Shown here one piece after another: positions 2,046 to 50,663 of a stretch of 64,000 bases of DNA. Within the stretch, counting starts at the first letter, position 1. Every line of letters starts with the position of its first letter. The position numbers were made by a program, and so were the translations under genes. Below the pieces are notes generated by a model. That model saw only the letters and a list, made by a program, of their open reading frames with translations. It ran no database searches and was not told the DNA's origin. Origin of the DNA: Methylocystis sp. H62 (GTDB taxonomy: Bacteria > Pseudomonadota > Alphaproteobacteria > Rhizobiales > Beijerinckiaceae); contig NZ_JADNQZ010000048.1 in the NCBI RefSeq assembly GCF_015709515.1, positions 62,001 through 126,000 on the forward strand. The letters are read 5' to 3'.

Positions 2046-2048
2046 CGG

Positions 2049-3912: not shown

Positions 3913-3922
3913 GGAGCGCCGC

Positions 3923-4762: not shown

Positions 4763-4810
4763 CGCCCGCAGAATGGCGCGTCTAGGGAAGTTACGCCGAT
4801 GGAGAGTCAC

Positions 4811-17994: not shown

Positions 17995-18023
17995 TTGACG
18001 AAAAAAAAATATCCGCGCTATGT
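17995..18023 (+). promoter_or_regulatory. Candidate sigma70 promoter for the TonB receptor operon
   Basis: TTGACG (17995-18000) is followed after 17 bases by TATGTG (18018-18023), about 50 bases before the ATG at 18073. The spacer starts with a run of A, and the whole region is AT-rich against a GC-rich background. Confidence 0.45.
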
Positions 18024-18072
18024 GCTGCATACAACGCGAGGCATCGCACTGCACACTAGTAGAGGCAGAAGA

Positions 18073-20505: not shown

Positions 20506-20520
20506 AGATGGGAGCGGACG

Positions 20521-20808: not shown

Positions 20809-21089
20809 ATCAGATCCGACGCGATTGGGTCAGTAAAACCTCGGCCGGCGTCATTCTGGGCTTCAGCCTCGCGATCGGTCTTGCGGGTCTCTTCGCGTGG
20901 CTCAGTCCCGGCGGACTCGCAACTCCGAATAAATTTCAGCTGGTGATGTGGCTGATCGCGCCGATCTGGCTGACGACGCTGACTCTTTGTTTCTTTTTTT
21001 CGAGCGGTATGCGCGCCTGGCTCTGGCTGGGCGGCGTAAATCTACTGGCGTACGCCGGCCTCTTCGCCTGCCGCCTTTTCCTTCGCTAA
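20805..21089 (+). CDS. Small iron-uptake-associated membrane protein
   Basis: 94 residues from the ATG overlapping the previous stop. Three hydrophobic helices (AGVILGFSLAIGLAGLFAWL; FQLVMWLIAPIWLTTLTLCFFF; GGVNLLAYAGLFACR). Proteins of this size and shape, often labelled DUF3649 or 'iron transporter', sit between TonB receptors and PepSY proteins. The exact family is a guess; the membrane location and operon membership are firm. Confidence 0.65.
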   Translation: MNQIRRDWVSKTSAGVILGFSLAIGLAGLFAWLSPGGLATPNKFQLVMWLIAPIWLTTLTLCFFFSSGMRAWLWLGGVNLLAYAGLFACRLFLR

Positions 21090-21104
21090 TCGGGACAACG
21101 CACG

Positions 21105-24073: not shown

Positions 24074-24294
24074 ACGACGCGCAGCCAAATCCATTCGACG
24101 ACGAAAGCCTTACGTTTCTCGTTCTGGTCAATTCCCAGGGGCAGCACAGTCTCTGGCCGACATTCGCCCCGAAGCCCGCAGGTTGGCGACGGCTCTTCGG
24201 CCCGAGCGATCGGAGCGACTGTATAAACTTTGTCGATGAGCATTGGACGGACATGCGCCCAAAGTCTCTTCGTGAGGCCTCTCGTCCGCGCTAA
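24070..24294 (+). CDS. MbtH-like protein
   Basis: 74 residues from a GTG overlapping the esterase stop. The family signature is present: NPFDDESLTFLVLVNSQGQHSLWP, then PAGWRRLFG and C-terminal NFVDEHWTDMRPKSL. MbtH proteins bind NRPS adenylation domains and are often needed for their folding or activity; this one lies 43 bases before the NRPS and is its obvious partner, like YbdZ for EntF. Confidence 0.94.
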   Translation: MNDAQPNPFDDESLTFLVLVNSQGQHSLWPTFAPKPAGWRRLFGPSDRSDCINFVDEHWTDMRPKSLREASRPR

Positions 24295-24337
24295 CAAACG
24301 ATTTCGTCGACAGCCTTTCCTTCGAAGGGAACGATAA

Positions 24338-27300
24338 GTGCTTCTTGCCCCGCCTTTGCGACCTTCCTTGCCGATCGCGCTTGAGCTCCCGCTCATTGCA
24401 GCGCAGCCGGGCATCTGGATGGGCGATCAGGTTTCACCGACGCTAAACGCCTTCATCGTTGCACAATATGTGGAGCTGAATGGCGACGTCGATCTTGAAT
24501 CGCTGCGCCTTGCCATTCGCATCGGACTTTCCGAGGCCGATACAGTTCATGCCCGATTTATCGAGACGGAGGGCCGGCTCTCGCAAATCATTCCTCAACG
24601 CATAAATGCTGGGGAGTCGCCCGATCCGGATGTCGTTGACGTCAGCGAAGAACCCGCTCCGGAGGCTGCAGCGCTTGCCTTCATGCGCGCCGATCTGGCG
24701 GCGGATCTGCCGTTGGATGGCGACGCGCTGCTTTATCGGCACGCGCTGATTCGTCTCGGTGATACATCGAACGGCGAGCGTTGGTTCTGGTATCAGCGCT
24801 ACCACCATTTGATGGTCGACGGTTTCAGCTTTGCCGCCATCGCGCGGCGCATCGCCGATATCTACACGGCGCTAAGGCGCCGTAAGCCTTTAAGGGATTC
24901 GCCTTTCACCTCCTTCGCCGAGGTCGTCGAAGAATACCAGTCCTACGAGGGCTCGAAGGCGCAGGAAGCAGACCGATTGTTTTGGCTCGGCCACGCCCAA
25001 AATCTGCCGACCCCGATCGCATTGTCGCAGCCGAGCGCGAAGACGCCCCAGGCCGGGGCTGTGTCCTTGCCGCTGCGGCGACGAATATCTCTTCCGCCAG
25101 ACGTTATGACGGCGTTCGAGGCGCAAGGCGCCGCCGTGCGCGTCTCCGGCGTCGAAATGGCGATGGCGGCCGTCTTCGCGTATCTGCATCGGATGAGCGG
25201 CGCCACGCGATTGACGGTCGGCATGCCTTTCATGCGCCGCATGGGATCCATCGCGCTCTTCGCCGCAGGTCCTGTCGTCAACGTCCTGCCTGTGCAACTG
25301 AGCATCGACCCCTCGATGTTATTGTCGGAGGCGGCGACAGCGCTTGCCTTGGAACTGAGGGCGGTGCGGCGGCGCCAACGGTACGAAGCCGAACAGCTGC
25401 GGCGCGATCTCGGGCTGGTCGGCTCGGATCGCTCTCTCTACGGGCCGATGCTCAATCTCAAGATGTTCGATTATCGGCTCGATTTCCATGGCGTCGCGGG
25501 CGTAACGCATCAGCTCGCGTCGGGGCCGGTCGAAGACATGGAACTCGATCTTTATGTCGACGACGGCAGGCTGACGATCGATCTCGTCGGCAATTGCGAT
25601 CGCTACGACGAGCAGGATCTGGAACTGCACGCGAAGAGGCTCGCCTGTCTTGTGGAGCGCCTCGCGGCAGATCCCAAGCTCGCAATCGGCGCGGCGCCGC
25701 TCCTGACCGAAGGCGAGCGCGCGCTGATCGCGGCGGCGAACGACACAACGAAAGATGTTCCACGGCTGACGTTATGCGACATGCTTGCCGCCCAGGCGGC
25801 AAAGACGCCAGACGCTATAGCGCTCGTTGATCCAGACCATACGCTGACCTACCGAGAGGTTCGGCGGCAGATCTCTCGACTTGCGCAAATGCTTGCAACC
25901 GCGGGGGTGGTCGCTGAGGATCATGTCGCGATCGCGCTTCCCCGGATTGTTCACTTAAGTCTTGCGATCATGGCGGTGCTGGAAACGGGCGCCGCCTACC
26001 TGCCCCTCGATATCAATTATCCCGACGAGCGACTGGCCTACATGGCTGAGGACGCAGCGCCGCGCGTGATCATCACCAGCGAGAATCTGCGAAGCCGGTT
26101 CGAAAGTATGGGACCGGTTCTGATCTTCGATGATCTTGCGCCCGGCGTCGAAGATTATCCTTCAGCGCCAAAGACGGCGCTCACGCTGGGCCACCCGGCC
26201 TATATCATCTACACGTCAGGCAGCACCGGGAAGCCGAAGGGCGTCGTTGTTTCTCACGGCGCGGTCGTCAATCTCCTGTACTGGCTTCAAGACGAATATT
26301 CGCTGACCGCCGCCGACGTTGCGTTGCAGAAGACGCCCTGCAGCTTCGATGTCTCCGTCGGCGAGTTCTTCTGGCCCTTGACCGGCGGCGCCCGCCTCGT
26401 GATGGCTCCGGAAGAAGTCGACCGGGATCCGGAAGCCCTTCTGCAGGTCATCCGCGACTATCGGGTCACGACGATGAATTTCGTGCCGTCGCTGCTGGCC
26501 GCCTTTGTCGCCGGCGTTCGGACGACGGCGAACGCCGCGCGTGACGCTGCAAGCCTGCGGGCAGTGTTTTGCATTGGCGAGGCCCTGTCGAAGGAACTCG
26601 CCGAAGCCTTCGGAAATCTTTTTCACGCGCCGCTGCATAATGTCTATGGACCGACGGAAGCCACGGTCGAGGTGACGTATCAGCCTGCATTCGGACAGGC
26701 GCTCGCCTCGGCGCGGGGACCGGGCGTGCCGATCGGGCGGCCTTTGTGGAACACAGGCTTGCGCATATTGGACGCGCGCTTGCGCCCTGCGCCGATCGGC
26801 GTCGCCGGCGATCTCTATCTGACAGGGGCGCAACTCGCGCAAGGCTATTGGCGCCGTGCTTCGCTGACCGCCAGCCGGTTCGTCGCCGACCCCGAAGCCG
26901 ATGGCGAGCGCATGTACCGCACCGGCGACATCGCGCGCTGGCTGTCCGACGGAACCGTCGATTATCTGGGTCGCAGCGACGATCAGCTCAAAATACGCGG
27001 CCAGAGAATCGAACTCGGCGAAATCGAAAGCGCTTTGCGGGATCAGCCTGGCGTCGCGCAGGCGGCGGTGATCGCGCGCGTTCTCGGCCGTGGGGATGCG
27101 TCGGCGCTTGCTTCTGACGCTCGACAACTCATCGGCTATGTCACGCCCGCGACGCGCGGCGACGAACTCGACGGCGAAGCGCTGCGCGCGGCGCTGGGCA
27201 AGCGCCTTCCTGCCTATATGACGCCGATTGCGATCATGATTTTGGAGGAATTGCCGCTGAGCGCCAACGGCAAGCTCGATCGGAACGCTTTGCCCGATCC

Positions 27301-30300
27301 GTCTGAAGCGGCTCAGTCGAAAAGCCGCCAGCCGCTTCCTGGACCCGAAGCGATGCTGGCCGATCTTATCGCCGACATCCTGCGCGTAGACCACGTCGGC
27401 GCCGATGACGACTTTTTCCTTCTCGGCGGCGACAGCATTTCCGCGATAGGTCTTTGTGCGGCGCTGCGTCGGCGCAGCGCCTTGTTGCGGCCGCGAGACA
27501 TCTTCGAGTGCCGCAGCGTCGCGCGTATGGCGAAGGCGCTCGAGTCGAAGTCTGAGGTGGCGCCCGCCGAAACTCTTGAGAGCAGCGAAATCAGCGAGGC
27601 GGAGCTGGATGCCTTGCGCGAGCGTTACGGTCCTATCGCCGCCGTATTGCCTGCCTTGCCGTTACAAGAAGGACTGCTGTTCCATGCCCGGCTCGGCGAG
27701 CAAGCCAGCCGCTACAACGCTATCTCCCGCTTTGATTTCGAAGGTCCGCTTGATGTCGAAAGACTGAAGGATGCGCTGGAGACGCTGCTCCGCCGTCACC
27801 CCCAGCTGGCGGCGGTCTTCGATGTTCAGCAGGGCGCGGCGCTGCAAATCCTTCCGCGGCTCGATGAGGGTTCCAGTCTACGTCACTGGCCATGGAAGCG
27901 TTGTAAACTCGACGCATGCGATGAAGAGCAGCAGTTCGCGGAACTCGATCGTCTCGAGCGAGCGGAGCTCGACCGCGATTTTCTTGGCGCCGAGGCGCAA
28001 GAGCGAATGATGGCGCAGGCGACGCTCGTGCGCCTTGCCGGCGACAGGCATGTTCTGCTCATCTGCTCGCATCATTTGATCGGCGACGGCTGGTCTTCAA
28101 CGATCATGCTGCGAGAGCTGCTCGGCGCCTATGCGGGTCATGCGCTGCCACCTCTCACGCCCGACTATCCAACGGTCGTGCGTCGCCTCACAAGCCGCGA
28201 CCCGGCCCCTGCGCGTCTCGCCTGGCGAGAGGCGCTGCAGGGCGCTGCGCCGACATTGCTGTATGAAGACACGAAGCGCTTCGGAGCCATTCATGAATTG
28301 CCGCTTCGACTTCGGCCCGGATTCCTGGAAGAACTTGAGACGCTGCGCCGCAGCCGCGGGCTGACGCTCAACTCGCTGATGCAAGGCGTATGGGGCGCTT
28401 TCCTTGCAACTATGACGGGCCGCAGCGACGTCGTGTTCGGATCGCCGATGTCGGGACGTTCCGAGGCGATCGAAGGCATCGAAGCGCATATTGGACTTTT
28501 CACCAACACGCTACCGGTCCGCTTGCGGCTGCGCCCAGATCAGCCGCTGCTCGAGCAGCTTGTCAATGTCCAGCAGCGCCAAATTCGGCTGCTGGAGCAT
28601 GACGGCGTTGGGCTTGGCGAAATCCAACGACTGTGCGGCGTCGCGAACCTCTTCGACACATTGCTCGTGGTGGAGAATTATCCGGAAGATGCGAATCTGT
28701 TCGCGGCGGACTTCGGCGGTCTGCGATGCGTCGGCGCCCGCAACCGCGGCTATACGCATTATCCTTTGACGCTGATGGTTCTGCCGGGGCGCGAACTGGA
28801 GCTGCGGCTCGAATATCGCGAAGGCGTCAAGGAGCCGGAGCGCATTGCCCGCCGTGTGACGAGACTGCTGGAACAGCTCGTCGACCGACCCGATGCGCCG
28901 CTCTCTGTGATGGACGTTTTGCTCCCTGATGAGCGAGATCTTCTCGCGCGCGTCAACGCGACGAAGGTGGAAATTCATCCGAGCACCCTGTGCGAGCTGT
29001 TGGCGGACCAGGCGCAGCGCACGCCGGACGCCATAGCGCTGGTCGACGGCGATCATGCGCTGTCCTACCGCGAGGTTCGGCGGCAAGTAACGGCGCTCGC
29101 GCGCAACTTCGCGGCCATCGGCGTCACGACCGGCGACATCGTCGCGATCGCGCTGCCGCGTTCAGTTCGACTGGTTATCGCGCTGATGGCCGCGCAAGAA
29201 GCGGGCGCCGCCTATTTGCCGCTCGACACAAGCTATCCGGAAGAACGTCTTGCGTATATGGCGCAAGACGCTCGACCTCGCCTCATCGTCACGACGCGAG
29301 AACTGCAGGAGCGCTTCGAGCAATTGGGCGCATCGCTCGTCTATGATGAGCTGTCGGATGGTCCGAGCGAAGACAGCTTGAACAGAGTCATCCGCCCAAG
29401 CCCCGACGATGCGGCCTATGTCATCTATACTTCCGGCTCGACGGGTCGTCCTAAGGGCGTGACTATCTCTCACAAGGCGATCGTCAATCGATTGCGCTGG
29501 ATGCAGCATGAGTACCGATTGACTGCTGACGACGTCGTCTTGCAGAAGACGCCAAGCAGCTTCGATGTTTCGGTATGGGAGTTTTTTTGGCCGCTGATTA
29601 CGGGCGCGCGACTCGTCGTCGCGCCGCCGGAAGCACATCGCGATCCGCGCGAGCTGCTTCGGCTCATTCATGACCACCGGATCAGCGTGATCCATTTCGT
29701 TCCGTCAATGCTCGCGACCTTCGTCGCGACGGCCAAATCCGAATCCGGCCATGCGGCGGACTCCAGCAGTTTGCGTCTCGTCTTTTGCAGCGGCGAAGCG
29801 CTGTCGAAAGAATTGGCCCGGTCCTATGAGACGCTGTTCAGCGCGCCGCTGCATAATCTCTACGGTCCGACAGAGGCGGCTGTCGACGTCACCTATCAAC
29901 AGGCGTGCGGAGTAGGTGCAGAAGACGCTGCTGAGGCGGCCAGCGTTCCCCTCGGCCGGCCCGTGTGGAACACAGGCTTGCGGGTTCTCGATGGCTGGCT
30001 GCGGCCGACGCCAGTCGGAGTCGCGGGCGAACTTTATCTTTCCGGCGTGCAACTTGCCGATGGTTACCTCGGCCGCCGATCGCTCACGGCCAGTCGTTTC
30101 GTCGCCGATCCTTTTGCGGACGGCGAGAGAATGTATCGCACAGGCGATATCGTCCGCTGGTTCGGGAGGGGAACCGTCGAATATCTTGGTCGAGGCGACG
30201 ACCAGATCAAGATCCGCGGTCAGCGGATCGAACTCGGCGAAATCGAAAGCGTGCTGCTGGAGCAGCCTGGCGTCGCGCAGGCCGCGGTCATAGCAAGAGC

Positions 30301-31537
30301 GACGGGCGAACGCGTGGGCGGCGGCGCCGATGAGCGTCAGTTGATCGGCTATGTCGTTCCATCAAAGGATGCGGAACTCGACGGCGAGGCGTTGCGCGGC
30401 GCGCTTTTGCGGCGTCTGCCAGGCCATATGACTCCGACTTCGGTCATCTGCCTCAAGGAATTCCCGCTGAACGCCAGCGGCAAACTTGACAGAAAGGCGT
30501 TGCCGGCGCCGGGAAATGGGCTTCAACGCCAAGGCCGCAAGCCGCTTCCGGGAATTGAAACGACTCTTTCAGAAATATTCGCGCGTGTTCTTGGGATCGA
30601 TGAGGTCAACGCCGACGATGACTTCTTCGCGCTCGGCGGACATTCCTTGCTCGCCATGCAGCTCGCCGCGGCGTTGGAGGCGGAATTCAAGACGCCTGTC
30701 TCCGTCGGCGAAGTCATCGTCAATTCGAGCGTTGAACGGCTTGCGCGCGCGCTTTTCGACGAACAAGCGGGCGAAGAGCGCAAGGCGGGTTTCGGCGAAG
30801 TGCTGCATCTGCGCTCGGGCGCCGATGCGCCGCTGATCTGCATTCATCCAGCTTCCGGCTTTTCGTGGCAGTTCAGCGTCCTTACCCGCTACCTCCAAAG
30901 CGACAGCCCCGTGATCGGACTTCAGTCGCCGCGGCCGAACGGAGTCATCGCCGTCTGCGATACGATGGATGAGGTCTGCAAGAGACATCTCGACACGATC
31001 CGCAGCATACAGCCTCGCGGGCCCTACCGCCTGCTTGGCTATTCGCTCGGCGGCGTGGTGGCGCAGGCGATCGCCGCGCGCCTGGTTGAAGACGGCGACG
31101 TGGTCGACTTTCTCGGACTGCTCGACACCTATCCGCCGGAAATCCAGGACTGGAGCAGACCGCCGACGGAAGACGAAGAGCGCGAGATCGAGAAGGAGCG
31201 CGCGCTGTTCATGAACGCCTCCAAAGACGCTCTCGACTCGGCCTTGGCGAAGGAGAAGGCGGAGATGTTCGGCAATATCATGCGGAACTACGAAGATTCA
31301 GTGCGTCTACTCTCCACCGCGAGGACGGCGCGCTATCCCGGAGCGGCGACGCTATTCGTAGCGAGGCGGACCTTGCCGCCGGGAATGGACGTCCAGGAGA
31401 CCTGGCGTCCCTATGTGGGCCAGCTCAACGTCGTCGACCTGGACTGCGCCCACACGGACATTGTCTCTCCGCGCTCCCTGCAGGCTTTGGGGCCAATCCT
31501 CAACGACTTGCTGCGCGACAGAGAGGCGAGGAGCTAG
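24338..31537 (+). CDS. Two-module NRPS, catechol siderophore synthetase (C-A-T-C-A-T-TE)
   Basis: 2399 residues starting with GTG. Domains in order: C1 (HHLMVDG about 155), A1 (YTSGSTGKPKG about 625), carrier T1 (GGDSIS, Ser about 1033), C2 (HHLIGDG about 1245), A2 (about 1697), T2 (GGHSLL, Ser about 2103), thioesterase (GYSLGG, Ser about 2236; DCAHTD near the end). The A2 pocket reads DVWHFSLVDK by my alignment, identical to EntF, so serine. A1 reads DVGNFIVVEK, which I do not recognise. C1 would accept dihydroxybenzoyl from EntB. The layout matches EntF with one extra module, as in synthetases of DHB-amino acid-Ser triscatechols (trivanchrobactin, chrysobactin family). No epimerase domain, yet C2 begins PLQEGLLFHA like DCL or dual C domains. 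The TE would trimerise and cyclise. Confidence 0.93.
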   Translation: MLLAPPLRPSLPIALELPLIAAQPGIWMGDQVSPTLNAFIVAQYVELNGDVDLESLRLAIRIGLSEADTVHARFIETEGRLSQIIPQRINAGESPDPDVVDVSEEPAPEAAALAFMRADLAADLPLDGDALLYRHALIRLGDTSNGERWFWYQRYHHLMVDGFSFAAIARRIADIYTALRRRKPLRDSPFTSFAEVVEEYQSYEGSKAQEADRLFWLGHAQNLPTPIALSQPSAKTPQAGAVSLPLRRRISLPPDVMTAFEAQGAAVRVSGVEMAMAAVFAYLHRMSGATRLTVGMPFMRRMGSIALFAAGPVVNVLPVQLSIDPSMLLSEAATALALELRAVRRRQRYEAEQLRRDLGLVGSDRSLYGPMLNLKMFDYRLDFHGVAGVTHQLASGPVEDMELDLYVDDGRLTIDLVGNCDRYDEQDLELHAKRLACLVERLAADPKLAIGAAPLLTEGERALIAAANDTTKDVPRLTLCDMLAAQAAKTPDAIALVDPDHTLTYREVRRQISRLAQMLATAGVVAEDHVAIALPRIVHLSLAIMAVLETGAAYLPLDINYPDERLAYMAEDAAPRVIITSENLRSRFESMGPVLIFDDLAPGVEDYPSAPKTALTLGHPAYIIYTSGSTGKPKGVVVSHGAVVNLLYWLQDEYSLTAADVALQKTPCSFDVSVGEFFWPLTGGARLVMAPEEVDRDPEALLQVIRDYRVTTMNFVPSLLAAFVAGVRTTANAARDAASLRAVFCIGEALSKELAEAFGNLFHAPLHNVYGPTEATVEVTYQPAFGQALASARGPGVPIGRPLWNTGLRILDARLRPAPIGVAGDLYLTGAQLAQGYWRRASLTASRFVADPEADGERMYRTGDIARWLSDGTVDYLGRSDDQLKIRGQRIELGEIESALRDQPGVAQAAVIARVLGRGDASALASDARQLIGYVTPATRGDELDGEALRAALGKRLPAYMTPIAIMILEELPLSANGKLDRNALPDPSEAAQSKSRQPLPGPEAMLADLIADILRVDHVGADDDFFLLGGDSISAIGLCAALRRRSALLRPRDIFECRSVARMAKALESKSEVAPAETLESSEISEAELDALRERYGPIAAVLPALPLQEGLLFHARLGEQASRYNAISRFDFEGPLDVERLKDALETLLRRHPQLAAVFDVQQGAALQILPRLDEGSSLRHWPWKRCKLDACDEEQQFAELDRLERAELDRDFLGAEAQERMMAQATLVRLAGDRHVLLICSHHLIGDGWSSTIMLRELLGAYAGHALPPLTPDYPTVVRRLTSRDPAPARLAWREALQGAAPTLLYEDTKRFGAIHELPLRLRPGFLEELETLRRSRGLTLNSLMQGVWGAFLATMTGRSDVVFGSPMSGRSEAIEGIEAHIGLFTNTLPVRLRLRPDQPLLEQLVNVQQRQIRLLEHDGVGLGEIQRLCGVANLFDTLLVVENYPEDANLFAADFGGLRCVGARNRGYTHYPLTLMVLPGRELELRLEYREGVKEPERIARRVTRLLEQLVDRPDAPLSVMDVLLPDERDLLARVNATKVEIHPSTLCELLADQAQRTPDAIALVDGDHALSYREVRRQVTALARNFAAIGVTTGDIVAIALPRSVRLVIALMAAQEAGAAYLPLDTSYPEERLAYMAQDARPRLIVTTRELQERFEQLGASLVYDELSDGPSEDSLNRVIRPSPDDAAYVIYTSGSTGRPKGVTISHKAIVNRLRWMQHEYRLTADDVVLQKTPSSFDVSVWEFFWPLITGARLVVAPPEAHRDPRELLRLIHDHRISVIHFVPSMLATFVATAKSESGHAADSSSLRLVFCSGEALSKELARSYETLFSAPLHNLYGPTEAAVDVTYQQACGVGAEDAAEAASVPLGRPVWNTGLRVLDGWLRPTPVGVAGELYLSGVQLADGYLGRRSLTASRFVADPFADGERMYRTGDIVRWFGRGTVEYLGRGDDQIKIRGQRIELGEIESVLLEQPGVAQAAVIARATGERVGGGADERQLIGYVVPSKDAELDGEALRGALLRRLPGHMTPTSVICLKEFPLNASGKLDRKALPAPGNGLQRQGRKPLPGIETTLSEIFARVLGIDEVNADDDFFALGGHSLLAMQLAAALEAEFKTPVSVGEVIVNSSVERLARALFDEQAGEERKAGFGEVLHLRSGADAPLICIHPASGFSWQFSVLTRYLQSDSPVIGLQSPRPNGVIAVCDTMDEVCKRHLDTIRSIQPRGPYRLLGYSLGGVVAQAIAARLVEDGDVVDFLGLLDTYPPEIQDWSRPPTEDEEREIEKERALFMNASKDALDSALAKEKAEMFGNIMRNYEDSVRLLSTARTARYPGAATLFVARRTLPPGMDVQETWRPYVGQLNVVDLDCAHTDIVSPRSLQALGPILNDLLRDREARS

Positions 31538-31540
31538 GGG

Positions 31541-32968
31541 ATGGACACTCAGCGCGCCCCAGAAGCGTCGCAAGAGACGCGCAACGAAGGCCATGCCGTG
31601 TCGCCGGGTTCATCTCGTGATCCGGCGGGCGCCGTCGCCAAAAACATCGTCAAGAACATCGTCAAGAACAAATCCACTCTGCTGTTGGACCTCAGTCTGC
31701 TGCGCGACAATGCGCCATTTCGCACCGTCGTCATCGCCCGAACCCTTTCGGTGTTTTCGCTGGGCATGCTGACAGTAGCGGCGCCCGTCCAAATCCAGGA
31801 ATTGACCGGCTCGCCTATGCAAGTCGGAATAGCCATGGCGCTGGGCGGCGGCGGCGCCTTCGCCGGGCTGTTGGCGGGCGGGGTGCTCGCGGACCGGTGG
31901 GATAGACGCAAGCTCATCCTCTTTGCGCGGTCGGTATGCGGCATTGGCTTCGCGGCGCTCGCCGTCAATGGCTTCAGCGCGTCGCCGTCAGTGCTGGCGA
32001 TCTATGCGTTGGCGCTATGGGACGGATTTTTCAGCGCGCTCGGCGTTACTGCGCTGCTCGCCGCAACGCCTTTTCTCGTCGGCCGCGAAAATCTTGGCGC
32101 TGCCGGCCAGTTCAACATGCTGACGATTCGCATGGGCGGAATCCTCTCTCCGGCGCTCGGCGGGATGGTGATCGCGTCTTTCGGCGTGGGCTGGAATTTC
32201 CTTGCAGCCGCGATCGGCGCGCTGCTCACCGTCGCTCAGCTCATGCGGCTTCCACCGATGCCTCCTGCCAGACGCGAACCGCAGCACCCCCTGCGCGCGC
32301 TCGGGGCGGGCGTAGGCTATCTTTTCGTTAACAGGCTCGTCGGCGCCGTCGTCGCCGTGGGCGCGCTTGTCAGTCTCGGCGGCGGCGTCCGCATTCTCTT
32401 GCCGGCGCTTGCCGAGGACATATACCGCGTCGGGCCGTCGGCGGTGGGGATGATGTATGCCGCAGCGCCGCTGGGCGCGACGGCAGCCGCCTTAACAGGA
32501 GGTTGGCTCGGCGGCTTTGCTCGTTCCGGAGCGCTGCTGCTCGCAAGCGGCCCGGCGGCTTTCGTCGCGCTCGGGTCGCTCGGATTTGTCAGCGATCCAG
32601 TCGTCGCCTTTATGGCGCTCGCGGGCTTTGGCTATTTGAGCTCGATCGCATCGCTTCTGCAGTTCACGCTTGTCCAACGCCACACGCCGGAACATTTGTT
32701 GGGCCGGGTCAATGGTCTATGGGCCGCCCAGGCGGTCACCGGCGATGCTTTTGGCGCGCTTGCGCTTGGAGGCCTGACTCGCGTTTTTCCGCTGACGTCA
32801 GCCATTCTCATTTTCAGCCTTATCGCGCTTCTTTCGAGCGGGGCGATGGCGATCGGATTTCGTTCGCTTCGTTTCGCCTCGTCAAAGAGGAGCGAGGATT
32901 TGCCTTCGACGAGCGCCGAAAAGAGCGAACGGCCGCAGCCTCAACTCTCGAAGACCGAGAAAGCTTGA
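31541..32968 (+). CDS. entS: MFS exporter, EntS-like
   Basis: 475 residues, 12 hydrophobic helices with the MFS loop GGVLADRWDRRKLILFARS, after a polar N-terminal extension of about 45 residues containing an imperfect repeat (KNIVKNIVKNK). Sequence style and context match EntS, the inner-membrane exporter of enterobactin. It starts four bases after the NRPS stop, with GGGG before the ATG, so it is translated in the same operon. The C-terminus has a charged tail. Confidence 0.82.
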   Translation: MDTQRAPEASQETRNEGHAVSPGSSRDPAGAVAKNIVKNIVKNKSTLLLDLSLLRDNAPFRTVVIARTLSVFSLGMLTVAAPVQIQELTGSPMQVGIAMALGGGGAFAGLLAGGVLADRWDRRKLILFARSVCGIGFAALAVNGFSASPSVLAIYALALWDGFFSALGVTALLAATPFLVGRENLGAAGQFNMLTIRMGGILSPALGGMVIASFGVGWNFLAAAIGALLTVAQLMRLPPMPPARREPQHPLRALGAGVGYLFVNRLVGAVVAVGALVSLGGGVRILLPALAEDIYRVGPSAVGMMYAAAPLGATAAALTGGWLGGFARSGALLLASGPAAFVALGSLGFVSDPVVAFMALAGFGYLSSIASLLQFTLVQRHTPEHLLGRVNGLWAAQAVTGDAFGALALGGLTRVFPLTSAILIFSLIALLSSGAMAIGFRSLRFASSKRSEDLPSTSAEKSERPQPQLSKTEKA

Positions 32969-33040
32969 TGTGCACGCCGTGCATGTCGGCGACGCTTTTT
33001 GATGAAGAACGAAATCGATAGCGGTAGGTAGAGGTGCGAC

Positions 33041-34231
33041 ATGAATGCGATTAATCTTGCTCCTTCAGTTTCGACCATTGAAGCCAATACCAGCTTTGTG
33101 TTCACTTCGCCGCATCGAAGCATCAAAGCATTCGGCATCGCCGAGAGAATTTGTCTTTCGGCGTGCGGCGCGGCGCATTCGGATAGTTTCCTGCAGACGG
33201 CCGTGCAGGGCGCAATCAATCGGGCGCGGCAGGCCGGACAGGTAAATCCCATTGTTGCGGGCGCCATTCCTTTCGACATACGGCAGCCCTGCTCACTGTT
33301 CGTGCCAATGAGTTATACGGATTTCGCAAGAGGGTCGCTGATGGTCGAGGAGCGACGCTCGGAGCGGGCGCCCACGGTGCTCGGCATGCGTAGCCTCCCC
33401 GACAAGGACGCATTCAAAGACGCCGTCACGCGCGCGATCACAAGCTTTCGCGCCGGGAAAATGTCGAAAGCGGTTCTATCCCGCATCCTCGAGATCGAAC
33501 TCGCGCAACCGGTCGACGTCGCAGCGATCTTGAACGCCTTGGTGAAGCAAAATCCCAGCGGCTATCATTTCAAGGCGCCCTTGACCGATGGGGCGATATT
33601 GCTTGGCGCAAGTCCTGAGCTCCTGATCCGAAAGGACGGCGCCGCCATTCGCTCCAATCCCTTGGCCGGTTCGGCCAAACGCAGATCGGACCCGGAAGAG
33701 GATCGGCTGGCGAGCCGCACGCTGTTGCAGTCGAACAAGGACAATTTCGAGCACAGGCTCGTCGTGGATGAGATACAGGAAGCGCTGGAGCCCGTATGCA
33801 AAGCTCTGACGACGCCCGCTGGGCCAGCGCTCATGAACACGTCGACGATGTGGCATCTCTCGACGTTGATCACCGGCGAGCTGGCGAACCACCACACGTC
33901 GGCGCTTCAACTAGCCTGCCGTTTGCATCCGACGCCTGCGGTCTGCGGCTATCCAACCGCCGAGTCGCGGTCGTTGATTGGCGCTCTGGAGCCATTCGAC
34001 CGCGGCGTTTTCAGCGGCGCCGTCGGATGGTGCGATTCAGAGGGTAATGGCGAGTGGGCGGTGGCGATAAGGTGCGGAACGGTTCACGACAAAGCCATTC
34101 GACTCTTTGCCGGCGCCGGCATCGTCGAAGCTTCTGATCCGGAATCCGAATGGGCGGAAACTGAAGCCAAGTTAGGCACGATGCTGCGCGCCTTCGGAAT
34201 AGAAACGGGGGAGCGCCCGGCATGCCGATAG
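33041..34231 (+). CDS. entC: Isochorismate synthase
   Basis: 396 residues of the chorismate-binding fold. Makes isochorismate from chorismate, the first step to 2,3-dihydroxybenzoate. Visible signatures: GASPELLIRKDGAAIRSNPLAGSAKR, then NKDNFEHRLVVDEIQEAL, LHPTPAVCGYPTAESRSLI and the C-terminal VGWCDSEGNGEWAVAIRC. It lies 72 bases after the exporter and overlaps the start of entE. Siderophore rather than menaquinone role (MenF) is inferred from the adjacent entEBA genes. Confidence 0.94.
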   Translation: MNAINLAPSVSTIEANTSFVFTSPHRSIKAFGIAERICLSACGAAHSDSFLQTAVQGAINRARQAGQVNPIVAGAIPFDIRQPCSLFVPMSYTDFARGSLMVEERRSERAPTVLGMRSLPDKDAFKDAVTRAITSFRAGKMSKAVLSRILEIELAQPVDVAAILNALVKQNPSGYHFKAPLTDGAILLGASPELLIRKDGAAIRSNPLAGSAKRRSDPEEDRLASRTLLQSNKDNFEHRLVVDEIQEALEPVCKALTTPAGPALMNTSTMWHLSTLITGELANHHTSALQLACRLHPTPAVCGYPTAESRSLIGALEPFDRGVFSGAVGWCDSEGNGEWAVAIRCGTVHDKAIRLFAGAGIVEASDPESEWAETEAKLGTMLRAFGIETGERPACR

Positions 34232-35844
34232 AGTTCACGCCCTGGCCCGAAGCCTTCGCCCGTAGATATCGCGAGAAAGGCTATTGGCGCGGCGAGCCGC
34301 TGACGGAGATTTTGCAGCGCGCCTGCCATCGTCATCCTGGCGCCGTCGCGCTCATTTGCGGCGAGCGACATCTCACTTACGCTGAGTTGGACGCCAAGTC
34401 CTCGCGACTTGCGTCAAGCCTCATGCGACGCGGAATAGAGCAGGGCGATACCGCGCTCGTTCAACTTCCCAACGTCGCCGAGTTTTACATCGTTTTTTTT
34501 GCGCTGCTCAAAATGGGCGTGGCGCCGGTCAATGCGCTGTTCAGCCACGACAGGCTGGAGATGACCGCCTATGCGCAGCAGCTTCAACCCAAGCTTCTCA
34601 TCGCGTCCGCCGAACATCGTCTCTTCGCGGACGGCGTCTATGTCACAGGCTTGCGGAGCTTCGCGCCGACATTGAGCGTCGTGGCCATCCACGGACGAAC
34701 TGAATATGCTGAAAATCTTGAGTCGCTGTGGGAATGTGACTCAGACGGCGCGGCGGACGAACCGCGCCCTTCTGCGGCCGATCAGGTGGCGTTTTTCCAA
34801 TTGTCGGGCGGCAGCACCGGCGTTCCCAAGCTCATTCCGCGCACCCATGACGACTATTACTATAGCGTGCGGCGAAGCGCGGAAATCTGCGGTCTGACGG
34901 CGGAGAGCCGCTACCTGTGCGCGCTACCGGCGCCGCATAATTATCCGCTCAGTTCGCCCGGCGCGCTCGGCGTCTTTCACGTCGGCGGAACAGTGGTGAT
35001 GGCGCGAAATCCAAGCGCGGATCTCTGCTTCGATCTCATGCGCCGTCACAAGGTAAACTTCACGGCCATTGTGCCGACGATTGCTTCGTTATGGCTTGAC
35101 GCGACTGTTGACGCCTCTCTGAAAGCGCCGACCTTGAGCGTGATGCATGTCGGCGGCGCGCGACTGAGCGAGACGGTCGCCCGCCGAATTGTCGCCGTCT
35201 TCGGCTGTCGGCTGCAGCAGGTTTTCGGCATGGCGGAGGGGCTCGTCAACTACACGCGTCTCGATGATGCGCCCGAGCGCATTTTCACGACTCAAGGCCG
35301 GCCGATGAGTCCCGATGATGAGCTGAAAGTCGTCGATGCAGATGGCGAAGAGGTCGCCGCGGGCGAAGTCGGAGAACTGCTGACTCGCGGTCCCTACACG
35401 ATCCGGGGGTACTATCGCTGTCCCGAATACAACGCCCGCGCTTTCGATGAAGATGGTTTCTATCGCACAGGCGATCTCGTCGTGATGACGGCGGACGGCG
35501 ATGTGAAAGTCGTGGGCCGCAAGAAGGATCAGATTAACCGGGGCGGCGAGAAGATTCCTGCGGAAGAGATCGAGAATGTGCTGCTTCAGCACGAAGCTGT
35601 GGTCCACGCGGCTCTCATTTCCATGCCTGACGCCGTCATGGGGGAGAAAAGTTGCGCTTACATTGTCACGAGCGACGCGGCGCTAAGACCGATCGCCTTG
35701 CGCAAGCACCTCCGCAGCCAGGGTGTCGCTGAATTCAAACTCCCTGACCGTTTTGAATTCATCGATCAAATGCCGCTTACCGCCTTCGGGAAGGTCGACA
35801 AGCAAACGCTTCGCGACGACATCCAGGCGAAGCTCAACGTCTAA
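34222..35844 (+). CDS. entE: 2,3-dihydroxybenzoate-AMP ligase
   Basis: 540 residues, stand-alone adenylating enzyme. ATP-binding loop SGGSTGVPKLIPRTHDDY, the family block LPAPHNYPLSSPG (typical of aryl-acid ligases), FGMAEGLVNYTRLDD, and C-terminal YRTGDLVV and KDQINRGGEKIPAEEIE. Activates 2,3-dihydroxybenzoate and loads it on the carrier domain of EntB. Start overlaps the entC stop by ten bases. The N-PHN motif supports a 2,3-DHB or salicylate substrate; DHB is favoured by entA in the same operon. Confidence 0.95.
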   Translation: MPIEFTPWPEAFARRYREKGYWRGEPLTEILQRACHRHPGAVALICGERHLTYAELDAKSSRLASSLMRRGIEQGDTALVQLPNVAEFYIVFFALLKMGVAPVNALFSHDRLEMTAYAQQLQPKLLIASAEHRLFADGVYVTGLRSFAPTLSVVAIHGRTEYAENLESLWECDSDGAADEPRPSAADQVAFFQLSGGSTGVPKLIPRTHDDYYYSVRRSAEICGLTAESRYLCALPAPHNYPLSSPGALGVFHVGGTVVMARNPSADLCFDLMRRHKVNFTAIVPTIASLWLDATVDASLKAPTLSVMHVGGARLSETVARRIVAVFGCRLQQVFGMAEGLVNYTRLDDAPERIFTTQGRPMSPDDELKVVDADGEEVAAGEVGELLTRGPYTIRGYYRCPEYNARAFDEDGFYRTGDLVVMTADGDVKVVGRKKDQINRGGEKIPAEEIENVLLQHEAVVHAALISMPDAVMGEKSCAYIVTSDAALRPIALRKHLRSQGVAEFKLPDRFEFIDQMPLTAFGKVDKQTLRDDIQAKLNV

Positions 35845-46174: not shown

Positions 46175-47827
46175 ATGTCTGCCGATCAAAACTTCCCGTC
46201 GGAAAAAGTGGTGTCGGAACTCGCCGCGCCGCAGGGTGTGCGGCCTCTCAATCAGCGTGGCCGGGTGGAACGTCGAGAGGTGCTGCGCGCCGGCGCCGCC
46301 GGAATCATCGGGACCATTTTCGGCGGCAAATCCGCCAATGCGACAGGGCTGTTCTCACGCCTGATGGGAGACACGGCGTCGGCGGCGGAGGCGAGCGCGC
46401 CGCGTCTTGCGACGCTTGGCGACTACGTCTGGCTCACGCCGACGAAGCTCGGCGGGGGCGCTCAGGTGCAGGATCTTGCGACCGGCAAGACAATGGCCTG
46501 GATCGAATATTGGAATTACGGCGACAGCTGCCCGATCGCTCATCATCTCGCGGCCTTTCCTTCGGCCGACCCGCGCAAAGGCTTCGAGTTCGTAAACTCG
46601 ACCCAGGGTGCGCAGAACGTGCTGATTTATGGCATCCCCACGCAGATCCGGGAACATGGAATGCTCGATCCTTTGTGGGGTCAGGGCAATCAGATCTATC
46701 GCGTCGGCTTCGACGGGCAGCAGATGAGTTTGCTCGAGAACGTCGCCGAGACCACAGGGATCGGACTTGGCGTGCACACCGTCATCTTCCCGGATGCGTC
46801 TGGTTTCACGGTCGCGGACGGACAAAAGGATGTGGTCGCCTTCTTCAATCGCGCGACCGGAAATCAGAAGACGACGGTGATCGACGCCTTCCGTTTCGAC
46901 TGGCGTGGAAACGAGCCGGACGGCGTGCTCGAGGACAACTGGTTCAAGGGAGGGACCGTTCGCGTTTCCCGTCTCGTAAAGGCGCCCGACACCGGGCTCT
47001 ACGATTATCGCGGCGTCAAGGGAAACAAGCTCGATTGGGAGATGGTGCCGATGGGCGAGTATCTCGCCTATTCGGGACAGCTTCCGGGCGACTCGGTGAA
47101 GACGCTGACCGGCGCCGATAATTGCGTCCACCATCCGATCCATCCGCTCTCGCTGGTGACGCTTCGCATGTTCGCCGTCGGCGTCGTCATCGACCGCACG
47201 ACGATGGAGCCGGTTGCGTGTATTTCTTCTCCGGACGGCACGACCAAGGAAAGCATTCCGGTCAAGAAAATCGCCGACGGCATTTGGGACATCAAGCTGG
47301 ATAATGTCGTGTCCTCCGGACACGAATGCGGCTTTGGACCACACGGCAAATGGTTCACCATGACGAACAACACCCGCCAAAACAGCATGGGCGTGTTCGA
47401 TTGTTCGGACCGCGATCCGCGCAACTGGAAGCGAGTCGCCGAGTTCAAGGATTCGCACTGGGTCGGCTCGACGCCGAGCCCGTTCCACATCACCTATTCG
47501 ATGGACGGCTCAAAGATGTTTGTCTCAGAGCTGCATCGCAAGCCGGCGAAAAGCGCCATCGTCGTCGTCGACACCAACACCTGGACGACAATCAAGCGCT
47601 TCGAGAATGTGGGCGTTGACCTGCAGACGATGCATGTCACCTATGACGGCAAATATGTGCTCGCAATCTTCAGCGGATTCCAGCGGCTCGAAGGAGGAAC
47701 CTTCGTCTTCACGCAGGATACGCTGGAGCCCGTCGGTTATATTCCGAACTTTGGCGGTCACCACGACTGCGTTATTGTTCCGCGAAACAATGAGGAACTG
47801 ATCCACAGCCGCTGCACCACGGTCTGA
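46175..47827 (+). CDS. Tat-exported NosZ-like copper beta-propeller lacking the CuA domain
   Basis: 550 residues from ATG 46175 (AGGGAGAG upstream). A twin-arginine signal (VERREVLRAGAAGIIGTIFGG, residues 31-51) means export folded, as for NosZ. The rest reads as a seven-bladed propeller. The CuZ ligands of Pseudomonas stutzeri nitrous oxide reductase (His129, 130, 178, 326, 382, 433, 494) have counterparts at His123/124 (CPIAHHLAAFPS), 201 (GVHTVIFP), 383 (SGHECGF), 438 (SPFHITYS), 487 (TMHVTYDGK) and 529/530 (GGHHDCVIVP); the spacings 383-438-487 (55, 49) match NosZ (56, 51). The chain ends right there, so the CuA cupredoxin domain is absent. Extra His319/320/323. Reaction unknown. Followed by an ABC system on the same strand. 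Confidence 0.7.
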   Translation: MSADQNFPSEKVVSELAAPQGVRPLNQRGRVERREVLRAGAAGIIGTIFGGKSANATGLFSRLMGDTASAAEASAPRLATLGDYVWLTPTKLGGGAQVQDLATGKTMAWIEYWNYGDSCPIAHHLAAFPSADPRKGFEFVNSTQGAQNVLIYGIPTQIREHGMLDPLWGQGNQIYRVGFDGQQMSLLENVAETTGIGLGVHTVIFPDASGFTVADGQKDVVAFFNRATGNQKTTVIDAFRFDWRGNEPDGVLEDNWFKGGTVRVSRLVKAPDTGLYDYRGVKGNKLDWEMVPMGEYLAYSGQLPGDSVKTLTGADNCVHHPIHPLSLVTLRMFAVGVVIDRTTMEPVACISSPDGTTKESIPVKKIADGIWDIKLDNVVSSGHECGFGPHGKWFTMTNNTRQNSMGVFDCSDRDPRNWKRVAEFKDSHWVGSTPSPFHITYSMDGSKMFVSELHRKPAKSAIVVVDTNTWTTIKRFENVGVDLQTMHVTYDGKYVLAIFSGFQRLEGGTFVFTQDTLEPVGYIPNFGGHHDCVIVPRNNEELIHSRCTTV

Positions 47828-47958
47828 CGGGAACGGCGAACCCGCAAAGGCGACTCGCTTGCGTCCGGCGACGAGCCCCTCAAGCGATCGCTCCTCCTCA
47901 ACGAATCGGCCCGGCGTCACGCGCCTGACCGCATCGCCCTGCAGATAATGGTTCACCT

Positions 47959-49266
47959 ATGACGAAACGCCATCGCTCGCGCTTCCTGCTGGTGCGGCTC
48001 GGCGCTCAGAACGTCGGACGCCGGCTGCTGCGCAGTCTCTTGCTCGGCATGGCGGTGATGATCGCCGTCGGGGTTGTCTTCTCCGGCTTCGTCACCGGCT
48101 GGTCGCTGCGAGAAGGAATTTTGACGACCTTTTCGCGAATGGGCGCCGATCTCATTGTCGTGCCGCATGGCGCCTTGGTGAACATCACCAGCACGTTGCT
48201 CACAGTGCAGCCGACGGATCTCGATCTGGATGCTGCTCTGGGCGACAAGCTCAGAGCCGTTCCCGGCGTGGCGACGGTCGCCGCGCAGCGTCTCATCCGC
48301 GCGAGCGTCGAGGGGCGCGCGATCAATCTAATCGCCTATGATCAGGCGACCGATTTCACCGTCGAATCCTGGCTGCCCGCGGGCGAGAAACCCGTGGCCG
48401 CGACCGGGGGCCTGCTCGTTGGGGAGCGGGTCGCGCTGAAGACTGGCGAAGCCCTGACGATTTGCGGTCGGTCGCTGGTCGTGACGGGACGATTGGGCCG
48501 AACGGGCGTGGGTCCCTTTGACGAATCCTATTTCATCACCTTTTCCGCGCTCGACGAGCTTGTCGCCGCCGCGATCCGGGCGCGCCCTGCGAACATCCCT
48601 GTTCATCCGCCCGCGTCTTCGCCTTCGAAAGGGGATGACGCGACGCATCATGATCACGCCGCAGGACGGGCCGAATGCCTTCCGCCAATCGCGCAGGATC
48701 GTGTCTCTGCATTTCTCTTGCAACTGTCGCCCGGCGCCTCGGCGGAGCAAGCGCGTTTCGCCATTGGACAGATCCCGGCCATCAAAATCGTCACGGGCAA
48801 TCCGATCTTCACCGCCGCGCGCCAATCGCTCGGAAGTCTCTTCGGGGGCGTGGCGATTTTTGCTGGCTTGCTGATGCTGGCGATCTTCTTTCTCGTGTCG
48901 TTGTTGTTTTCCGCCATCGTTCAGGAGCGCTATCGTGAACTCGGCGTGTTGCGGGCCATTGGCGCACGGCCGGCGCAGATCATATCCATCACTTTGATCG
49001 AGGCGGGGCTCATCACAGGCTTTGGCGGCCTGTTAGGCATCGGCGCGGGTTTCTCGCTGATCTTCGTTTTTGCCCGTTCTCTCGGCTTTTACTTCTCGTC
49101 TCTCGGCGTGCCGTTCGACGCGCCGCCTGCCGGAATCATATGGATCGCCGCGGGCGCCGCGGCGCTCTGCGGCGTTACGATCGGCGTCGGAGGGGCTTTC
49201 GTCGCCGCTTGGCGGACACGGCGTCTTGAACCCTACGCGATGATCCAGATGGAAAGCGCGCGATGA
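47959..49266 (+). CDS. FtsX/MacB-type ABC permease with His-rich insert
   Basis: 435 residues, four membrane helices in the FtsX/LolE pattern: one near residues 28-48, three in the C-terminal part (about 290-315, 345-370, 390-415; VQERYRELGVLRAIGARPAQI before the second block). The large periplasmic domain between has a local insert around residues 214-240 rich in Pro, Ser and His, including HHDH at 230-233 and a Cys at 240, which could hold a metal ion. It lies 131 bases after the NosZ-like gene and overlaps the ATPase start (ATGA). MacB-like permeases move substrates by mechanotransmission in the periplasm, fitting maturation or release of a periplasmic protein. Confidence 0.87.
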   Translation: MTKRHRSRFLLVRLGAQNVGRRLLRSLLLGMAVMIAVGVVFSGFVTGWSLREGILTTFSRMGADLIVVPHGALVNITSTLLTVQPTDLDLDAALGDKLRAVPGVATVAAQRLIRASVEGRAINLIAYDQATDFTVESWLPAGEKPVAATGGLLVGERVALKTGEALTICGRSLVVTGRLGRTGVGPFDESYFITFSALDELVAAAIRARPANIPVHPPASSPSKGDDATHHDHAAGRAECLPPIAQDRVSAFLLQLSPGASAEQARFAIGQIPAIKIVTGNPIFTAARQSLGSLFGGVAIFAGLLMLAIFFLVSLLFSAIVQERYRELGVLRAIGARPAQIISITLIEAGLITGFGGLLGIGAGFSLIFVFARSLGFYFSSLGVPFDAPPAGIIWIAAGAAALCGVTIGVGGAFVAAWRTRRLEPYAMIQMESAR

Positions 49267-50663
49267 TTCTTTCCGCCACGGGTTTGCGGAAGCATTACGG
49301 CGGCGATCCTGGCGTGGACGCGGTAATCTCTGCCGATTTGATCATTGGCGCAGGCGAGTTCGTTTCGATCGTCGGACGATCTGGCTCTGGTAAATCGACG
49401 CTGCTCGCCATGGTCGGCGGGTTGACGCCGCCGACGGCGGGCAGGATTCAACTCGCGGGGGACGAGCTCTGGGATCTTCCCGAGGCGCAGCTTGCCGATA
49501 TCAGGCGAGAGCGGATCGGCTTCGTCTTCCAGTTCCAGAGTCTCCTTCCGAATCTTCGCGCCATCGACAATGTCGCCTTGCCGGCGCTTCTGGGCGACGA
49601 CGTGACGCCGGAATGCGCCTATGCGCGCGCGCAAGACCTTCTCGCCCGCGTGGGTCTGAGCGATCGGATGACAGCCTTCCCAGGACAGATGTCCGGCGGC
49701 GAGCAGCGTCGCGTCGTCATCGCTCGGGCCTTGATCAATGAACCGCAATTGCTTCTCGGGGACGAACCGACAAGCGACCTCGACGAGGAGACGGAAGAAG
49801 AAATCTTCACGCTGCTCGACAATTTGCGACGAGAGGAAAATTTCGCAATAGCGCTCGTCACGCACAACCATGCGCTGGCGCAACGCGCTGATCGCATGTT
49901 CGAGATGCGGCAAGGAATTCTCCTTCCGAGCGATGCGCCGCGCGCCTTCGTCGCTGCGCCGATCCGGCGCTCCGAACCGTCCGCGCCAAAAACGCCCGCG
50001 CCGGTCGGCGCCGATGCAGACGGCGCGCGCGATTTCGAAAAACTTGGCAAGACGCTGTGGGCGACAGCGGGACGCATCTTCGCCGCCGCGGCGCTGTTGT
50101 TCATTCTCGCGTCGTCGGCCAATTACGGCGTGGCGCGCTACCAGCAGTATGAACTTGACGCCGGTCGGCAGCGACTCGCCGCCCTCGAAGAACTTGCGAC
50201 GTCCACTTTGCAGAGCGACATCGCGTCGATTACGCAGCTCGGCGACGGTCGTTATGAGGTGACGATTTATCTTGAGAACACAAAAGCCGAACAACCCATT
50301 TACGTCATGTCGCCGAGCGTGCAGGGTTTCGTGCAGGTTGGAGTCGGCTGGCAGGAAGCGCCGCTGACGCCGATCGACGACGCCACCGCCGCGGTGCTGA
50401 AAGTCACAGGGCGGCAGCTCTACCGCTTCGTTTTTGAGGCTCGCCTCACGAAATTCACCGAATTGTTGCCCCACTACATGCATGTGCGCTTCAGCAACAG
50501 CATGCTTGTCAGTCCCGAGAGCACACCCACGAATGAGTTATTTCAGCGCGTCGACAACTACTATGTCTATCTGAAACCAGACAATGTCGACGACGCGACG
50601 ATCGCAAAGGATGTTCGGTTTCCCGGGCCGCCGCCGCTCTGGATCTGGATGCCGCCGCACTGA
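49263..50663 (+). CDS. LolD/MacB-type ABC ATPase fused to a membrane anchor and periplasmic domain
   Basis: 466 residues. Residues 1-225 are a normal ABC ATPase (Walker A GRSGSGKST, Q loop FVFQFQSLLPN, signature MSGGEQRRV, Walker B LLLGDEPTSDLD, then H switch VTHNHALA). After a Pro/Ala linker comes one membrane helix (about 277-297, AAALLFILASSANYGV), and residues 298-466 form a domain of unknown type placed in the periplasm if the topology is as expected (GDGRYEVTIYLENTKAEQPI, HYMHVRFSNSMLV, C-terminal PPPLWIWMPPH). I know no standard LolD/MacB-class ATPase with such an extension. It probably docks the upstream permease and the NosZ-like protein. Confidence 0.85.
   Translation: MILSATGLRKHYGGDPGVDAVISADLIIGAGEFVSIVGRSGSGKSTLLAMVGGLTPPTAGRIQLAGDELWDLPEAQLADIRRERIGFVFQFQSLLPNLRAIDNVALPALLGDDVTPECAYARAQDLLARVGLSDRMTAFPGQMSGGEQRRVVIARALINEPQLLLGDEPTSDLDEETEEEIFTLLDNLRREENFAIALVTHNHALAQRADRMFEMRQGILLPSDAPRAFVAAPIRRSEPSAPKTPAPVGADADGARDFEKLGKTLWATAGRIFAAAALLFILASSANYGVARYQQYELDAGRQRLAALEELATSTLQSDIASITQLGDGRYEVTIYLENTKAEQPIYVMSPSVQGFVQVGVGWQEAPLTPIDDATAAVLKVTGRQLYRFVFEARLTKFTELLPHYMHVRFSNSMLVSPESTPTNELFQRVDNYYVYLKPDNVDDATIAKDVRFPGPPPLWIWMPPH

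Follow-up and report, generated by a model that had tools for sequence, protein, structure and literature searches.

A thiocyanate dehydrogenase-family propeller protein with a naturally replaced active-site histidine and an adjoining FtsX-type ABC module in Methylocystis

When examining a 64,000-nucleotide stretch of the draft genome of Methylocystis sp. H62 (contig NZ_JADNQZ010000048.1, positions 62,001 to 126,000; hereinafter, the window, in whose coordinates all positions are given), we analyzed a locus of three genes that code for a propeller protein (P0001) and for the permease (P0002) and the ATPase (P0003) of an ATP-binding cassette (ABC) system. The FtsX-type ABC pair that an initial annotation of this DNA had placed next to the propeller gene is indeed there, and the ATG of P0003 overlaps the stop codon of P0002 by 4 bases. 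The draft genome comprises 4.54 Mb and carries a gene of the pMMO/AMO family; the closest named relatives for the locus are Methylocystis species, with 98% identity to M. rosea. The features of the locus, with the source of each assignment, are the following.

46175..47827, plus strand: P0001, predicted seven-bladed propeller of the thiocyanate dehydrogenase (TcDH) family, 550 residues (phmmer, AlphaFold/Foldseek, dN/dS)
46271..46345, plus strand: putative signal for twin-arginine translocation (Tat), with the arginine pair at residues 33-34 and a hydrophobic stretch after it (translation, by eye)
47624..47626, plus strand: codon of Gln484, which aligns with TcDH His482 (alignments)
47633..47635, plus strand: codon of His487, at the position of TcDH Ala485 (alignments)
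47959..49266, plus strand: P0002, permease of the MacB/LolC type, 435 residues (Pfam)
49263..50663, plus strand: P0003, ATPase, whole open reading frame (ORF), 466 residues (ORF translation)
49263..49925, plus strand: ABC ATPase domain, N-terminal part of P0003 (Pfam ABC_tran, 3.3e-31)
50064..50660, plus strand: fused transmembrane helix and beta-sandwich domain, C-terminal part of P0003 (AlphaFold, mean predicted local distance difference test score, pLDDT, 93.5)
50475..50483, plus strand: Tyr-Met-His of the fused domain, candidate copper ligands (invariant in 30 of 30 aligned domains)
50649..50660, plus strand: C-terminal Met-Pro-Pro-His of the fused domain, candidate copper ligands (Met and terminal His invariant, 30 of 30)

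The initial annotation took P0001 for a propeller of the nitrous oxide reductase (NosZ) type that retains only the CuZ copper site and forms a separate, new protein family. The sequence comparisons point instead to TcDH, which is described as a dimer of two identical seven-bladed propellers whose tunnel holds three copper ions and which oxidizes thiocyanate to cyanate and sulfur (PMC9456337). A phmmer search of the PDB with P0001 retrieved nine distinct TcDH sequences, all at E < 1e-112, which were matched over residues 79-549 with E values of 3e-128 to 4e-113 (3e-128 to 2e-114 for 8yu5, 8q9x and 5f75), and no other strong match. The identity to the two solved TcDHs, 42.6% and 45.2% over 455 and 456 aligned positions, speaks against a separate family. 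No Pfam or NCBIfam family matched P0001 above its cut-off, and the nos_propeller and NosZ profiles of these databases gave no match at E values up to 1. For the AlphaFold model, built from an alignment of 32 relatives (mean pLDDT 75.9; N-terminus disordered, weak stretch at residues 147-169), TcDH takes all of the 20 top-ranking Foldseek rows (TM-score by target, 0.91-0.93), and NosZ is absent from the best 50 of 1679 rows. We accordingly rejected the NosZ/CuZ assignment, against which both the profiles and the sequence comparisons speak, with the fold search in agreement. Homology to TcDH in sequence and predicted fold extends across the entire propeller, so that, by these two measures, P0001 is a full-length relative of TcDH. 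As annotated initially, the protein ends after the propeller and lacks a CuA domain: none of its seven cysteines (119, 317, 349, 385, 410, 532 and 547) is paired with another four positions away, and hence there is no CxxxC motif.

The twin-arginine motif that had been noticed near the N-terminus is present as Arg33-Arg34 in the sequence ERREVLR, which by eye is followed by a hydrophobic stretch but departs from the [ST]RRxFLK motif described in PMC5328954. The arginine pair belongs to the majority consensus of a 32-row alignment, and residues 33-46 form a helix in the AlphaFold model; P0001 is a candidate for export by the Tat pathway.

A closer comparison concerns the active site. The legend of Figure 4 in PMC6504805 lists 13 active-site residues of TcDH: Lys103, His135, His136, Gln156, His206, Glu288, Asp314, His381, His437, His482, His528, Asp529 and Arg544. 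Alignment to TcDH shows that 12 of these are kept in P0001, namely, Lys91, His123, His124, Gln144, His201, Glu289, Asp315, His383, His438, His530, Asp531 and Arg546, the sole change among the listed residues being the replacement of His482 by Gln484. Tyr164 of TcDH, which lies on the modeled electron exit (PMC9456337), is kept as well, as Tyr152. The seven histidines that had been put forward as copper ligands (123, 124, 201, 383, 438, 487 and 530, out of 16 in the protein) are all where they were said to be, and six of them match site histidines of TcDH. The seventh, His487, aligns with Ala485 of TcDH, three residues past Gln484, so the assignment of all seven as ligands is not confirmed. Because His482 is represented by Gln484, we class P0001 as a variant of the TcDH family rather than as TcDH proper (EC 1.8.2.7). 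Compared with the solved TcDHs from Thioalkalivibrio paradoxus (5f75, 6sji) and Pelomicrobium methylotrophicum (8q9x, 8yu5), P0001 thus has the same propeller fold and the same exit tyrosine but differs in Gln484 and in extra histidines at positions 319, 320, 323 and 487. The kept residues suggest that P0001, too, binds trinuclear copper.

The replacement is not a peculiarity of one genome. From 74 loci together with P0001, some of the same-genus loci having been fetched twice, 65 distinct core sequences were obtained, the window's included; the sequence from L073 is cut before position 482, and the one from L070 lacks its first half. Glutamine occupies the position of TcDH His482 in all 64 distinct sequences that cover the site, P0001 among them, a count in which close relatives, and possibly glutamine itself, are favored because the scan behind most of the loci started from six peptide queries taken from P0001, and Gln484 is part of one of these. 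Three residues further, alanine is found in 43 of the 64, histidine in 18 (P0001 included) and serine in 3. His482 is kept in the TcDHs of T. paradoxus and P. methylotrophicum and in five distant homologs. In a tree of 23 sequences, the Gln proteins comprised one clade (support 97/93), which the two solved TcDHs adjoin (support 99/99), and the five distant His homologs fall on the other side of the root, which is a midpoint root drawn for display in a tree for which the program issued a long-branch warning. Given that the distant His proteins sit across the midpoint root, histidine is most simply the older state. According to the titles of PDB entries 6sji, 8yu5 and 8yu6, the same His-to-Gln change has been engineered by others in both solved TcDHs.

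The two genes downstream of P0001 encode an ABC system that resembles MacB, LolCDE and LolF. Both domains that mark the MacB/LolCDE type exceed their Pfam cut-offs in P0002 (FtsX, 1.3e-16, 61.2 bits against a cut-off of 25.5; MacB_PCD, 5.7e-8, 33.7 bits against 27), and the permease shows weak similarity to MacB and LolF. The best NCBIfam row of the ATPase is LolD-like but below cut-off, as are the scores for the MacB, LolD, LolCE and LolE equivalogs (for the ATPase, among the best 25 of 200 rows). What sets this module apart from MacB, LolCDE and LolF is the C-terminal transmembrane helix and predicted periplasmic domain of the ATPase. No Pfam family matches the fused domain above cut-off, and comparison by profile and fold neither linked it to nor set it apart from the known periplasmic copper chaperones PCuAC, CopC, CusF and Cox11. 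In other lineages, this domain is encoded by a separate gene downstream of the ATPase, for example, a 293-residue protein in Methylocella tundrae and a 288-residue protein in Reyranella massiliensis. The Tyr-Met-His triplet and the C-terminal Met..His are invariant in all 30 aligned domains and may serve as copper ligands. (Our alignments A1 and A2 consist of 32 and 30 chosen sequences, and that of the permeases, of 24.) Around residues 211-240 (window 48590-48700), the permease has a His-rich loop with the motif HHDH. This loop was found in 8 of the 24 aligned permeases (the window, L018 and L020-L025), is absent or nearly so elsewhere and, for this reason, was dropped as a general feature.

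The propeller and the ABC module are inherited together. A permease match was found in 54 of the 58 propeller loci, and nearly all loci with enough flanking DNA have the permease and the ATPase next to the propeller; missing partners in L027, L042, L049, L055 and L073 coincide with contig ends, and the ATPase match credited to L027 belongs to an unrelated ABC gene, the likely partner lying on another contig (L103). The C-terminal domain was detected in 16 of 16 propeller-positive genomes among the 61 searched, the window's included (in G028, the domain is cut by a contig end), versus 1 of 45 propeller-negative genomes, where it is present only as a fragment. All three genes are under purifying selection, as indicated by low ratios of non-synonymous to synonymous substitution rates (dN/dS) in comparison with five relatives (propeller, 0.07-0.11; permease, 0.09-0.23; ATPase, 0.11-0.19). 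The lone fragment of the domain, at L101 5182-5397 in a genome of the same genus (G017) without a propeller match, is probably a relic of a lost cassette.

Contrary to the first impression, an ABC pair next to such a propeller is not unusual. In Thioalkalivibrio, the TcDH gene is followed by two permease/ATPase pairs, a hypothetical protein with a single transmembrane segment, G372_RS0106345, and other genes, which show strong induction on thiocyanate, and the permease has one N-terminal and three C-terminal helices (PMC5328954, PMC5744179); in T. thiocyanoxidans, TcDH, the ABC pairs and the single-segment protein are all upregulated on thiocyanate (PMC5744179). The likeness to the window, where the permease and the ATPase also lie directly downstream of the propeller, is to the published description and not to the sequences; the window has one permease/ATPase pair instead of two, and its membrane-anchored domain is fused to the ATPase. 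By this analogy, the window block looks like a compact and fused version of the same kind of block. Cus-type genes have been reported at the Thiohalobacter and Guyparkeria loci (PMC6504805). With TcDH as a relative, a multinuclear-copper propeller of this sort is not new in itself; what we regard as unusual is that glutamine has naturally taken the place of His482 and that a predicted periplasmic domain is fused to the ATPase.

Taken together, these observations make it likely that P0001 is a periplasmic trinuclear-copper oxidoreductase of the TcDH family with a natural change in the active site, which is matured by its own ABC module. The protein would be exported to the periplasm in the folded state by the Tat pathway and would hold a trinuclear copper site in the tunnel of the propeller. 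Its substrate would most likely be a small anion that contains sulfur or nitrogen, either thiocyanate or something closely similar, and the two electrons gained in the oxidation would reach a cytochrome c by way of the conserved exit at His530/Tyr152. Together with the membrane-anchored Met/His domain, the permease and the ATPase would form a MacB-like module that, most likely, loads or repairs the copper of the propeller after export rather than transporting bulk solute. NosZ, with NosDFY, is a multinuclear-copper propeller with a dedicated ABC system, and the putative role of the module can be likened to that of NosDFY for CuZ, although in the window there is neither detectable NosZ homology nor CuA, and the permease is of the FtsX type. 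The general notion, which goes back to the initial annotation, that the locus pairs a multinuclear-copper propeller with a dedicated ABC system is thus very likely sound, the ABC genes being co-inherited with the propeller, but the propeller is of the TcDH kind and not of the NosZ kind. More tentatively, and with odds that we would place well short of even, we envisage a clade of trinuclear-copper propellers, mostly from Alphaproteobacteria and with methanotrophs among the hosts, that fixed the crystallographers' His-to-Gln change, carries out a different oxidation and employs, as its counterpart of NosDFY, an FtsX-type ABC machine with a new periplasmic Met/His copper domain; this machine would have evolved from another type of ABC system than NosDFY, and the domain would have become tethered to the ATPase by fusion in the window's lineage.

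Several observations weigh against the interpretation that we prefer. Gln484 is the very residue state that was engineered by others at TcDH His482, and such mutants may be inactive or less active, so thiocyanate turnover may be lost. Two Methylococcaceae assemblies (L029 and L030) encode Gln-type propellers, about 54% identical, and show no match to the C-terminal domain and none to the permease or the ATPase in the adjoining DNA, so that the propeller might not depend on the module in every case. Fold searches with the fused domain yielded no relative that stands out. Beside the locus, inspection of ORFs by eye, together with a Pfam run confined to the three cassette genes and the next downstream gene, revealed no copCD, tatA, fccAB or cytochrome genes and no two-component genes, and the absence of visible copCD, tatA, fccAB and two-component genes distinguishes the window from the Thioalkalivibrio TcDH block. 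The Thioalkalivibrio transporter genes themselves are described as devoid of metal-binding domains or P1B features (PMC5744179). Finally, cyanase was not found in the window's genome and, among the 16 propeller-positive genomes, was found in only one, in a search that yielded a match in only 1 of 14 control genomes. As a correlate of the propeller, cyanase was discarded (1 of 16 positive versus 5 of 45 negative genomes, no association), and its lack does not settle the substrate because cyanase-free thiocyanate oxidizers exist, in Thioalkalivibrio (PMC6504805).

The substrate question within the preferred interpretation can be divided between two possibilities, and the chances that we assign to these are not to be added to that of the interpretation itself. 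P0001 could be an ordinary TcDH that converts thiocyanate to cyanate and sulfur, with Gln484, joined in some of the proteins by His487, taking over the job of His482. The retention of the exit tyrosine and of 12 of the 13 site residues, an ABC block of the same type as that of the Thioalkalivibrio TcDH (PMC5328954, PMC5744179) and a glutamine that is fixed rather than drifting are all compatible with this view, as is the origin of 3 of the 58 loci (L031, L032 and L038) from records titled scnpilot or SCN, a weak hint for which the base rate was not counted. However, His482 is kept in T. paradoxus, in Pelomicrobium and in the five distant homologs, that is, in proteins that flank the Gln clade on either side of the midpoint-rooted tree, and the window's genome lacks a detectable cyanase; we consider this option possible but on the doubtful side. 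The fixation of glutamine speaks for a reaction that departs from that of TcDH in at least one step, and a trinuclear-copper oxidoreductase with something else as its substrate, for instance sulfide, thiosulfate or a different pseudohalide, and without the step assisted by His482, has a chance only somewhat short of even. Such an enzyme would fit a single fixed change at an otherwise conserved site, with the other listed residues kept under purifying selection, and hosts that, by record titles, are mainly methanotrophs, Reyranella and other Alphaproteobacteria, not the thiocyanate-oxidizing genera of the cited papers; nevertheless, nothing speaks positively for another substrate, and the lysine, glutamate, aspartate and glutamine listed for the pocket are unchanged.

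A non-catalytic function of P0001, as a copper store, sensor or chaperone, might be suggested by the loss of a probable catalytic histidine in a genome with a pMMO/AMO-family gene, methanotrophs having a high demand for copper, but appears improbable inasmuch as strong purifying selection acts on a protein that has preserved the exit tyrosine together with the other 12 residues of the list and, of the 58 records, most are titled after groups that are not known to be methanotrophic. That P0001 is a CuZ-type relative of nitrous oxide reductase without CuA we find scarcely credible: NosZ, like P0001, is a His-rich propeller with a multinuclear copper site, but there was no profile match to NosZ at E values up to 1, TcDH accounts for every strong match in sequence and for the top 20 in structure, and one of the histidines counted in favor of CuZ, His487, is not at a TcDH active-site position. 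The remaining question is whether the ABC module could export a product or import a substrate or copper, instead of maturing the enzyme. MacB- and LolF-type families are known mainly for transmission of force, not transport of ions, and P0002, of the FtsX/MacB_PCD type, is weakly similar to MacB and LolF; moreover, the ATPase carries a tethered Met/His domain with a predicted periplasmic location. Copper uptake was raised by earlier authors for the Thioalkalivibrio block (PMC5328954, PMC5744179), whose transporter genes, as noted above, have no P1B copper-transport features. On this evidence, we regard transport as the doubtful option and maturation or repair of the copper site of P0001 by its own module as the preferable one.

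How TcDH acquires and inserts copper has been called an open question (PMC5744179), and the enzyme has so far been described from few organisms in the cited papers. The co-inherited permease, ATPase and Met/His domain present a testable candidate for a copper-insertion machine. A clade with a single fixed change in the site amounts to a natural experiment on the role of residue 482 and would show whether trinuclear-copper propellers act beyond thiocyanate. In methanotrophs, the metabolism of which is centered on copper, the propeller could represent an overlooked step of sulfur metabolism or cyanide detoxification. We found no report of a TcDH-family propeller in methanotrophs in the literature searched, which covered few subscription papers and, for the broadest query, 20 of 497 matching papers; where TcDH and methanotrophs occur in one text (PMC8906906), the passages concern MAG 65 of Thiohalobacteraceae or the sulfur genes of one genome, and in one of the texts that mention thiocyanate and Methylocystis (PMC7716213), a passage concerns rhodanese. 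In the record of Methylocella tundrae, the propeller is still labeled a hypothetical protein.

The propeller cassette is a patchy accessory trait, given that a propeller match was detected in only 2 of 398 genomes sampled evenly across the phylum, both from the window's genus and one of them the window's own, versus 15 of 37 genomes within the genus, again with the window's own included. Among 369 genomes from the class of a Methylococcaceae genome, 23 had a propeller match, and these consist of the genome of L030 itself, the five distant homologs and 17 weak partial matches (best E values of 1.8e-9 to 9.4e-4). At the five distant-homolog loci, no match to the ABC block was found in the DNA examined, which at L107 extends less than 1 kb downstream. 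A nagA-like gene and a gene with a CxxCxxCC motif closely flank the cassette in G000, G004, G005, G013, G018, G021 and G023; the nagA-like gene lies on another contig in G025, and G006, G009, G010 and G011 gave no match to it. No clean empty site for the cassette was seen among the genomes compared. A J-domain-like gene, which encodes a membrane protein with a weakly DnaJ-like C-terminus, below the Pfam cut-off (L075 10710-11432 and L035 6694-7416), matched in 41 of the 58 propeller loci but in none of those with the fused-type ATPase.

Elsewhere in the window, positions 2-6121 harbor a partial photosynthesis gene cluster with genes for PUCC, the reaction-centre H chain, a DUF3623 protein and a Rubrerythrin-family protein, the latter presumably resembling AcsF. 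The same contig (C48) also has two genes of the reaction-centre L/M family, some 77 kb upstream of the gene for P0001, and genes of this family are present in 8 of the 25 same-genus genomes searched, the window's included. Positions 17995-35841 encode a TonB receptor, a PepSY protein, a 2399-residue ORF (24338-31537), an MFS transporter, a chorismate-binding enzyme and an AMP-ligase, which together look like a cluster for a catecholate siderophore.

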